64,000 bases of DNA from Neobacillus cucumis (GTDB taxonomy: Bacteria; Bacillota; Bacilli; Bacillales_B; DSM-18226), in assembly GCF_016107705.1 (NCBI RefSeq), contig NZ_JAEHGC010000001.1:248001-312000 (forward strand), read 5' to 3'. The notes beneath the pieces are model-generated. The model saw only the letters and a list, made by a program, of their open reading frames with translations. It was not told the origin of the DNA and did not search any database. Each line of letters starts with the position of its first letter. Within the stretch, counting starts at the first letter, position 1. Shown here in pieces: positions 11,345 to 13,366 of this stretch. Made by a program: the position numbers and the translations under genes.

Positions 11345-12481
11345 ATGACGAAAATACTTTTGAAGAATGCAACGGTATATCCGATTACCGCCAACCCTAT
11401 TCATTCGGGGGATGTTTTAATTGAAGATGGAAAAATCGCTAAAGTTGATCAGCATATCATCACCGATTCAGAAGTTAAAATAATTGATTGTGGAAACGCC
11501 TATCTTTTACCAGGTTTTATTGATGTCCATACTCACCTTGGACTTTATGACGAAGGTACGGGCTGGGCGGGAAACGATGCGAATGAAACAGCGGAAGCCC
11601 TAACCCCGCATATACGTGCTTTCGACGGTGCCTACCCGTTAGATGCTGCATTTACGGATGCTGTTCGGAGCGGGATTACAACCGTTCATATTATGCCGGG
11701 AAGCGCAAATATCATCGGAGGGACCACATCGGTGATTAAAACAACCGGTAAAAATATTAAAAAAATGCTTATTCAAGAGATTGCGGGATTAAAAATCGCT
11801 CTAGGTGAAAACCCAAAAAGAATCCACAGCCATGGAAATAGCGACTCCATTACAAGAATGGGAATCATGGGCAAGCTCCGTGAAGCATTTTATCAGGCCA
11901 TTTACGCTGATAACCCAGAAGATCTAAGGATTGCACCCATTGTAATGGCACTGAAAAGGGAGATCCCCGTCCGGATCCATGCCCACCGGGCGGACGATAT
12001 CATTACAGCCACCCGTTTTGCGGAGGAATTTAATCTTGATCTGAGAATCGAACATTGTACAGAGGGGCATTTAATTGCAAATGAATTATCCGGGATGAAC
12101 CTAAAGGTTTCTGTTGGTCCAACCTTAACAAGAAGGTCCAAGGTCGAACTAAAAAATAAAACGTGGAAAACGTATCAGGAACTTACTAATCATGGGGTAG
12201 AAGTTTCTATTACCACAGATCACCCTTATACGCCGATTCAATATTTGAATATTTGTGCAGGAATTGCCGTTAGAGAAGGGCTTGATGAACAAAAAGCATT
12301 AAAAGGGATTACGATTTTTCCTGCAAAAAATTTGAAAATTGATCACCGTCTAGGGAGTATTGAAGAAGGAAAAGATGCTGACCTTGTATTATGGAGCCAC
12401 CATCCTTTCCATTATCTAGCAAAACCAAAATGGACAATGATAGGTGGAGAAATGGTTTTCGAAGAGACAAAAACTTTGTAG
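11345..12481 (+). CDS. Amidohydrolase (imidazolonepropionase-like)
   Basis: This 378-residue metal-dependent hydrolase of the amidohydrolase superfamily has the metal-binding HxH in GFIDVHTHLG (about residue 60), later histidines in RIHAHRADD and RIEHCTEGH, and the catalytic aspartate segment TTDHPYTP. The C-terminus (LGSIEEGKDADLVLWSHHPF) is the composite beta-domain typical of cyclic amide hydrolases. The substrate is not deducible; the family includes imidazolonepropionase and related deacylases. ATG start after AAGAAAGGTTTAAT. No functional neighbour. Confidence 0.85.
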   Translation: MTKILLKNATVYPITANPIHSGDVLIEDGKIAKVDQHIITDSEVKIIDCGNAYLLPGFIDVHTHLGLYDEGTGWAGNDANETAEALTPHIRAFDGAYPLDAAFTDAVRSGITTVHIMPGSANIIGGTTSVIKTTGKNIKKMLIQEIAGLKIALGENPKRIHSHGNSDSITRMGIMGKLREAFYQAIYADNPEDLRIAPIVMALKREIPVRIHAHRADDIITATRFAEEFNLDLRIEHCTEGHLIANELSGMNLKVSVGPTLTRRSKVELKNKTWKTYQELTNHGVEVSITTDHPYTPIQYLNICAGIAVREGLDEQKALKGITIFPAKNLKIDHRLGSIEEGKDADLVLWSHHPFHYLAKPKWTMIGGEMVFEETKTL

Positions 12482-12627: not shown

Positions 12628-12685
12628 GGGAAGGCAAATGGTGCGCCACCAGTTAACTGGTTCTAGTGGGTTCGATTCCCACCCC
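12628..12685 (+). ncRNA. tRNA-elbow-like leader element upstream of the GNAT gene
   Basis: The sequence can be folded as a miniature tRNA: acceptor GGG/CCC (12628-30 with 12683-85), linker AA, D arm GGC/GCC with a TGG-containing loop, hairpin CCAG-TTAA-CTGG in the anticodon-arm position, a 5-nt variable loop, and a perfect T arm GTGGG-TTCGATT-CCCAC. There is no 7-nt anticodon loop and the acceptor is too short, so it is not a working tRNA. The 3' strand of the T arm is also the 5' strand of the following terminator, so the two folds exclude each other. A regulatory role is inferred; a decayed tRNA gene is the alternative. The preceding 146 bp after the amidohydrolase show no gene. Confidence 0.5.
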
Positions 12686-12739
12686 GAAATTTTTTAGCAA
12701 TTCTAATAAAAAATTTCGAGGGTGGGCCGTTTTCTTTTG
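12678..12739 (+). terminator. Intrinsic terminator/attenuator before the GNAT gene
   Basis: CCCACCC plus CGAAATTTTTT pair with AAAAAATTTCG, a bulged A, and GGGTGGG, an 18-bp stem followed by CCGTTTTCTTTT. It ends 36 bp before the GNAT start codon and overlaps the T-arm-like hairpin. Confidence 0.8.
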
Positions 12740-12775
12740 ACATGGGATCGGATTGCCCTAATTGGAGGGATATTC

Positions 12776-13336
12776 ATGCTGAAGAAAAGAGATCTTCACG
12801 ACAGCCACACACTTTATGAACTAATGACGCATCCAGATGTCTTCCCTTTTGTACGTCAAAAAGCAGCATCCTATGACGAATTCCTATTCGTGACAAAGAA
12901 AACCATTGAAGCTGAAGAACGTGGTGAATTAATCTCCCGTACTATTCTTGATGAGTGGGGTTCCCCAATTGGTACAATTAATTTATTTGACATTGAAGAT
13001 AATGCAGGATTTTTGGGAACATGGCTAGGAAAACCGTATCATGGAAAAGGATATAATAATGTTGCGAAAGAAGCTTTTTTCAGTGAGCTTTTCTACGAAA
13101 TGGGAATTGAAACGATTTATATGCGAATCCGTAAGGTAAATATGCGTTCGATTAAAGCAGCGGAAAAACTACCATATGTTATAAAAGCAAATGAAACACG
13201 AAAATCACTGTATGAGCAATTAAACGCCAATGGTGAAGTTTACGATTTATATGAAATTCCAAAAGATCAATATACCTTCTATATAATGAGGAACGACTCT
13301 CTTCAAACAGATTCAACTCATTTATTGGAAGCATAA
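12776..13336 (+). CDS. GNAT-family N-acetyltransferase (YkwB/RimJ-like)
   Basis: This 186-residue GNAT acetyltransferase shows the acetyl-CoA-binding region GTWLGKPYHGKGYNNVAKEA (about residues 82-101) and the RVNMRSIKAAEKL-type motif B seen in RimJ/RimL-like enzymes (here RKVNMRSIKAAEKLPY). The ATG at 12776 follows TTGGAGGGATATTC. The acceptor is unknown: RimJ/L relatives modify protein N-termini or small molecules. Its transcript is controlled by a leader terminator that overlaps a tRNA-like fold, which could mean a link to translation, but that is inference. Confidence 0.85.
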   Translation: MLKKRDLHDSHTLYELMTHPDVFPFVRQKAASYDEFLFVTKKTIEAEERGELISRTILDEWGSPIGTINLFDIEDNAGFLGTWLGKPYHGKGYNNVAKEAFFSELFYEMGIETIYMRIRKVNMRSIKAAEKLPYVIKANETRKSLYEQLNANGEVYDLYEIPKDQYTFYIMRNDSLQTDSTHLLEA

Positions 13337-13366
13337 AAGCAATCGGCTACCGCCGATTGCTTTTTT
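13335..13366 (+). terminator. Terminator of the GNAT gene
   Basis: AAAAGCAATCGGC/GCCGATTGCTTTTTT hairpin. Confidence 0.9.

Follow-up and report, generated by a model that had tools for sequence, protein, structure and literature searches.

The analysed window, a 64,000-nucleotide stretch of DNA from Neobacillus cucumis, carries a tRNA-elbow-like leader between an amidohydrolase gene and a GNAT acetyltransferase gene, the latter being the presumed controlled gene (Table 1). An earlier note, made from the sequence alone, had described a D-loop GG, a full T arm, a 3-bp acceptor and a 4-nt loop at the anticodon position, and all of these were found in place. Its observation that the T-arm 3′ strand CCCAC doubles as the 5′ strand of an 18-bp hairpin also held: CCCACCC opens the hairpin, and its partner lies at 12708-12726. 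The 112-nt region folded better than 200 dinucleotide shuffles (z −4.08). Neither ARAGORN nor Rfam called a tRNA at the leader, and scanning it against Rfam 15 returned no family at its cut-off; the sub-threshold match with the lowest E value was tmRNA at the T arm, with 12.8 bits against a cut-off of 47. A promoter scan gave three sites compared to 3.1 expected; therefore, no promoter is named. A small ORF starting at the D-loop ATG (19 codons in the window, by eye) was rejected because the T arm falls in all three frames (57, 37 and 27 leaders relative to ATGGTG, which is absent in 13).

Table 1. Features of the leader and its flanking genes (positions in the window)
Feature	Position	Strand	Remark
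Amidohydrolase gene	11345-12481	+	upstream of the leader, same strand
tRNA-elbow-like leader	12628-12769	+	between the two genes
tRNA-like aptamer domain	12628-12685	+	58 nt; acceptor, AA linker, D arm, anticodon-like arm, TCTA variable loop, T arm
Acceptor-like stem	12628-12630/12683-12685	+	3 bp, GGG/CCC
D-arm-like element, GGC-AAATGGTGC-GCC	12633-12647	+	stem 12633-12635/12645-12647; GG present in loop
Anticodon-like arm, ACCAG-TTAA-CTGGT	12648-12661	+	4-nt loop; length and sequence vary in relatives
T arm, GTGGG-TTCGATT-CCCAC	12666-12682	+	covariation at 2 of 5 pairs
Competing 18-bp hairpin, CCCACCCCGAAATTTTTT with AAAAAATTTCGAGGGTGGG	12678-12726	+	one bulged A
Strand X, AGGGTGGG	12719-12726	+	common partner of the T-arm 3′ strand and strand Y
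Strand Y, TTGCCCT	12753-12759	+	pairs X (antisequestrator) or, via CCCT, the Shine-Dalgarno (sequestrator)
Shine-Dalgarno, GGAGGG	12764-12769	+	
GNAT acetyltransferase gene (PF13302)	12776-13336	+	186 aa; presumed controlled gene
Inverted repeat, AGCAATCGGC TACC GCCGATTGCT, then T	13338-13366		right behind the GNAT stop; likely an intrinsic terminator; absent from the pattern-scan listing

A search for the GNAT in GTDB species genomes left 80 of 97 loci, titled among others Neobacillus, Robertmurraya, Peribacillus, Rossellomorea, Halobacillus, Oceanobacillus and Ornithinibacillus. The leader was present in all 80 of these orthologous loci. Since this sample had been selected via the GNAT, the RNA was also searched for alone. 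A 28-nt pattern, allowing up to 3 mismatches, was run against 150 genomes chosen by kinship and matched exactly once in 129 of them and twice in none; in the 36 of these 129 genomes that were opened (30/30 and 6/6), the GNAT gene lay directly behind the match. The 21 pattern-negative genomes gave no match at an E value of ≤1e-6 to R1, a covariance model for which 75 distinct aptamers were used. The earlier note had proposed such a model for leaders of the same gene in Bacillaceae. Against 398 genomes of the class R1 returned 34 matches of at least 74.5 bits, every one with the GNAT gene directly 3′ of it, while the next best match reached 37.9 bits (stricter filters were used above 40 genomes). 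Taking all opened copies together (70 pattern matches or model matches of 74 bits or more, with some genomes repeated), the GNAT gene always followed directly. Conversely, the GNAT was absent at an E value of ≤1e-15 in 20 of the 21 genomes without the element. Thus, the RNA and the GNAT gene travel together within this order. Phage carriage of the element was dropped as a possibility, as viral contigs searched with an exact 24-nt core gave no match.

Outside the order the picture is different for the enzyme. The GNAT was found at an E value of ≤1e-25 in 101 of the 398 genomes of the class, and 67 of these 101 fall outside the 34 element-bearing genomes; therefore, the enzyme family can do without this RNA. 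The first 18 element-less GNAT loci of the class that were opened have no T arm of this kind within 320 nt upstream. One family, f62, has a different conserved leader within about 110 nt before the start of its element-less orthologous GNAT (24 loci: L158, L159 and L172-L193). It contains the T-loop-like letters GGTTCAAAC or GTTCGAAC (GGTTCGATT in L175) and a common GCTTTCG...TTCT...GCGGTC block ahead of the Shine-Dalgarno, and it may be another regulatory RNA of this gene, distinct from the first. Upstream of the GNAT in L156 there is a similar A/T hairpin platform (CCTTACCCGTAAATTTTTTAC ... GTAAAAAATTTATTAAGGTAGG) with a different 5′ domain.

We aligned 95 distinct aptamers (alignment A3) and found 37 invariant positions; the extraction pattern fixed many of these letters, and no locus failed the pattern. 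GNAT identity to the protein of the window falls to 49%. Changes on both sides of a pair were seen at 6 of the 17 proposed pairs, amounting to 48 cells (11.1 ± 2.6 in shuffles). By these counts, all slid registers scored worse than the proposed pairing. The changes fall into two arms. Four of the 6 pairs of the anticodon-like arm are affected and 2 of the 5 pairs of the T stem, which reads GTAGG/CCTAC in four rows (L147-L150, with three closely related members) and ATGGG/CCCAT in one (L111). The anticodon-like arm and the T arm are thus supported by compensatory changes. The D stem is invariant in 95/95 distinct aptamers and the 3-bp acceptor hardly varies, while 99.2% of the cells also allow a competing hairpin, TGGTG/CACCA, which shows no both-side changes. 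For this reason, the contact between the D loop, whose GG is kept among the relatives, and the T loop is only inferred, by analogy with tRNA. The linker J1/2 is AA in 132 of 134 leaders and AAA in the other two. The aptamer is also kept where the platform behind it has been rewired (L113, L115 and L147-L150). Inserts of about 50 nt were found in the anticodon-like arm of L043 and L047 and in the hairpin loop of L094; the elbow letters are intact in all three.

A decayed tRNA gene, or a chance resemblance to tRNA, is a rival account of such letters, and the five lower-scoring matches of R1 that were opened, the best outside the element, are indeed tRNA genes (three Gly(UCC), one Gln and one Lys). 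A lack of covariation of the D and T arms in relatives had been named in the earlier note as the sign of such decay; covariation was seen in the T arm, while the D stem did not vary. The element occurs as one copy per genome before one gene, and its 37 positions stayed invariant across 95 distinct sequences while the protein diverged to 49% identity. This conservation, together with the compensatory changes, practically excludes a decayed tRNA gene. The leader is real and conserved, and it is almost certainly a cis-regulatory RNA.

The strict linkage to one gene raises the question of whether the GNAT protein, or a complex containing it, controls its own translation, negatively or positively, by binding to the tRNA-like leader. 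AlphaFold2 with 32 orthologues predicted a GNAT fold with a pLDDT of 89 (34 for the single-sequence prediction). The best PDB profile match was MccE (E value of 8.3e-7), whose entries name the microcin C7 self-immunity acetyltransferase, and the best structural matches by Z were FdhC (17.7), RimL and SpeG; the substrate is not given by the fold alone. A search for defence families with the GNAT gave no match. With respect to the neighborhood, 52 of the 80 loci have an amidohydrolase gene upstream in the same orientation; beyond it, no neighbor cluster occurs in more than 47 of the 80, and conserved neighbors were abandoned as a clue to function. Autoregulation would fit both the presence of the GNAT behind all opened copies and the shared loss, with the protein absent from 20 of the 21 pattern-negative genomes. 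However, the 67 GNAT genomes of the class that lie outside the 34 with the element speak against it, and most of the proteins are acidic (median pI 5.42, range 4.91 to 8.85, median charge −6.6 among 32 orthologues), which is a weak argument against direct RNA binding. We therefore consider autoregulation decidedly unlikely.

Behind the aptamer, most leaders contain four strands: T (the T-arm 3′ strand plus CCC), X, Y and the Shine-Dalgarno GGAGGG. T is complementary to X in the long hairpin, X to Y, and Y to the Shine-Dalgarno, and in most leaders these complementarities are mutually exclusive. X is GAGGGUGG in 97 of the 134 leaders, and Y is often CUGCCCUC. Where X has changed, Y has often changed along with it: TGGGGCAG occurs with CTGCCCCG or CTGCCCCA (L065 and L066), AGGGGTGG with CTGCCCCT (L085), GCGGGTGGG with CCCGCCTGC (L124) and GGACAG with CTGTCC (L122). 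For the 37 leaders whose X has changed, the X-Y helix scored 16.5 with the native Y compared to 13.9 when Y was swapped in from leaders with another X; the native value lay above the swapped median in 22 of the 37 and not in the other 15 (Wilcoxon p of 1.6e-4, phylogeny ignored). Complementarity of single strands exceeded the 95th percentile of shuffles in 46% (X-Y), 10% (Y-SD) and 0% (T-X) of the 134 leaders, which is weak. The T-X complementarity is only 2 to 3 bp in L115, L122, L148 and L150; therefore, the relay is not universal. The leaders L147-L150, which belong to another family, have a different platform, and their T-arm 3′ strand may pair with the Shine-Dalgarno directly (UUCCUA/UAGGAG in L148, by eye).

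From this arrangement, we propose that the conserved cis-regulatory RNA, an orphan riboswitch candidate, is probably a translational ON switch of the GNAT gene with a tRNA-like aptamer. In the folded state, the elbow and the T arm would form and the short A/T hairpin would stand alone. This would leave X (GAGGGUGG) free to pair with Y (CUGCCCUC), and the Shine-Dalgarno GGAGGG would be exposed because Y is held by X. In the unfolded state, the T-arm 3′ strand CCCACCCC would pair with X and extend the hairpin, and the released Y would pair with the Shine-Dalgarno, resulting in low translation. Anything that stabilizes the tRNA-like fold, be it a small molecule or a tRNA-binding factor, would accordingly turn the gene on; the existence of a ligand and its kind are inferred.

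Folding models were used to follow the exposure of the Shine-Dalgarno. For 134 leaders, the unpaired probability of the Shine-Dalgarno core was read with the tRNA-like fold forced and with the T-stem 5′ strand and the acceptor blocked. The mean was 0.58 for the forced fold compared to 0.28 for the blocked state. Forcing the fold raised the exposure by more than 0.2 in 81 of the 134 leaders and lowered it in one, whereas 18.9% of shuffled controls (n = 402) went up and 9.2% down. L065 changed in the wrong direction, and the leader of the window itself showed no predicted change (0.41 and 0.41). In L147-L150, forcing the T arm also freed the Shine-Dalgarno in the models. Compared to the free ensemble, the forced tRNA-like state was less stable by 8.6 kcal/mol on average (mean of −54.73 for the forced state and −63.29 for the ensemble). 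An earlier and cruder version used another Shine-Dalgarno window and blocked the T-stem 5′ strand alone; here, 46 of the 134 leaders went up and 21 down (controls, 8.2% up and 3.7% down), and 20 of the 21 falls lay within L001-L036, the group of the window. The models thus favor an ON switch at the level of translation once the tRNA-like form is present. Because of the mixed outcome of the cruder test and the unchanged leader of the window, the direction of the switch is to be taken as a model and not as a result.

The earlier note had read the long hairpin as an intrinsic terminator and the leader as an attenuator, in which the tRNA-like fold would act as the antiterminator. In the window, the sequence behind the hairpin is indeed T-rich (GCCGTTTTCTTTTG); a terminator pattern scan did not list the 18-bp hairpin, which says little because the loop limit of the scan was 8 nt. 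Among the relatives, however, the T-run is not kept: of 134 distinct leaders, only 17 have TTTT within 12 nt behind the hairpin, and only 3 have at least 6 T in 10 nt. The hairpin was therefore dismissed as a conserved terminator. At 4 to 15 nt from the start of the Shine-Dalgarno, TTTT was found in 34 of the 134 leaders, so that the sequestrator hairpin could itself terminate; because of this closely placed TTTT, termination at the sequestrator may have been added in some species. Attenuation of transcription would leave the Y-SD complementarity next to the start codon without a role, and we regard it as very unlikely to be the main mechanism. What stands of the attenuator reading is an elbow-like leader that competes with the downstream hairpin and very probably controls the acetyltransferase; instead of termination, the evidence favors masking of the Shine-Dalgarno.

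An ON switch of this kind could also be set by a factor that handles tRNA, such as the ribosome, RNase P or Z, or a T-arm modification enzyme, which would read the elbow and set expression with no small molecule involved. Leaders containing real tRNAs raised translation 2- to 6.3-fold in vitro, according to excerpts of PMC9142559. The element keeps the exact tRNA T loop TTCGATT and the D-loop GG, and it has TAGTGGGTTCGATTCCCA in common with a tRNA-Gly(UCC) gene. However, the acceptor stem is only 3 bp long and the CCA end is absent, and we consider such a factor unlikely. We most likely deal with a tRNA-like translational riboswitch of a new class.

In a more speculative reading, which we put forward as rather unlikely, the element could represent a second class of natural tRNA mimics that act in cis, with a near-complete tRNA elbow as the sensor itself. 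The RNA would monitor the tRNA machinery or the ribosome, by way of a T-arm enzyme that is free, the ribosome itself or an antibiotic directed against tRNA, and would switch on an acetyltransferase that answers the state it reads. The answer could be, for example, the detoxification of an aminoacyl-nucleotide-like inhibitor, as carried out by MccE, a distant relative of the GNAT. As a strongly conserved, single-copy orphan riboswitch candidate that matches no Rfam 15 family, and that was found in the majority of the sampled genomes of one bacterial order as well as in part of another family of the class, the element would be a clean test case for the question of what recognizes a tRNA elbow within an mRNA, with the linked GNAT as a handle on the signal.

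Several known RNAs resemble the element in part. It shares TAGTGGGTTCGATTCCCA and the D-loop GG with tRNA-Gly(UCC) but lacks the 7-bp acceptor, the anticodon loop and the CCA, and it is called as a tRNA by neither ARAGORN nor Rfam. In T-boxes, an invariant UGGN bulge pairs with the NCCA of the tRNA. The leader strand GGGUGG, which we take to resemble this motif, also adjoins a switch hairpin. However, there was no Rfam T-box match at the leader, neither a stem I nor a specifier was seen, and X varies with Y (TGGGGCAG or GGACAG in L065, L066 and L122), so that the UGGN bulge is not kept. Membership in the T-box class was rejected. The pseudo-tRNA tRNAOther of Bacillus cereus is likewise a tRNA-like element inside a longer RNA; it differs in having a Trp anticodon and being part of a separate regulatory RNA (PMC3399842, in part), and the word acetyltransferase does not occur in the main text of that article. 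In the searched main-text passages of openly licensed papers (including PMC4342826, PMC11109978 and PMC2864571), no description of the element was found.

The closest parallel is the yjdF (azaaromatic) riboswitch, RF01764. The earlier note knew of no riboswitch of this design. Excerpts of PMC9142559 do describe yjdF as a translational switch with a tRNA-like fold, based on small-angle scattering and probing, in which the T-arm equivalent pairs with the ribosome-binding site in the absence of ligand; the claim holds only in part, yjdF being a different RNA. A later crystal structure revealed a T-loop-like core, with a pocket made of loop L2b and the joining regions J1/2a, J3/4 and J4/1 (PMC10987639, in part). 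Three points bear comparison. First, yjdF is described as a four-way fold resembling tRNA, in which loops like the D and T loops interact (passages of PMC9142559, PMC10987639 and PMC4793209); in our element, only the T and anticodon-like arms have covariation. Second, yjdF is described as a translational ON switch and the element would be one, with the OFF pairing made by the T-arm equivalent and the ribosome-binding site in yjdF and, as predicted by the folding models, through X and Y here. Third, the excerpts tie yjdF almost only to one gene of unknown function, and the element occurred only before the GNAT in the opened copies. Acetyltransferases under yjdF control are mentioned in passing in PMC9142559, as excerpted. 

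The two RNAs are nevertheless distinct. No RF01764 match was found at the leader at either the gathering score or an E value of ≤10, and R1 found nothing in six yjdF loci. RF01764 matched in 0 of 71 sampled genomes with the element compared to 6 of 30 without it (G034, G040, G044, G106, G150 and G261; L194-L199), with kinship uncorrected and sets that are not random, and this mutual absence could be a kinship effect. The J1/2 of yjdF is long, purine-rich and forms the ligand pocket, in contrast to the two or three A of the element, and all opened copies precede PF13302 GNAT orthologues and not yjdF. In most leaders, the element would mask the Shine-Dalgarno through the T-X-Y-SD relay, whereas yjdF pairs its T arm with the ribosome-binding site directly; the possible direct T-arm/SD pairing in L147-L150 is like that reported for yjdF. 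With a tRNA elbow more literal than that of yjdF, the element would show that tRNA-like regulatory folds have been used more than once.
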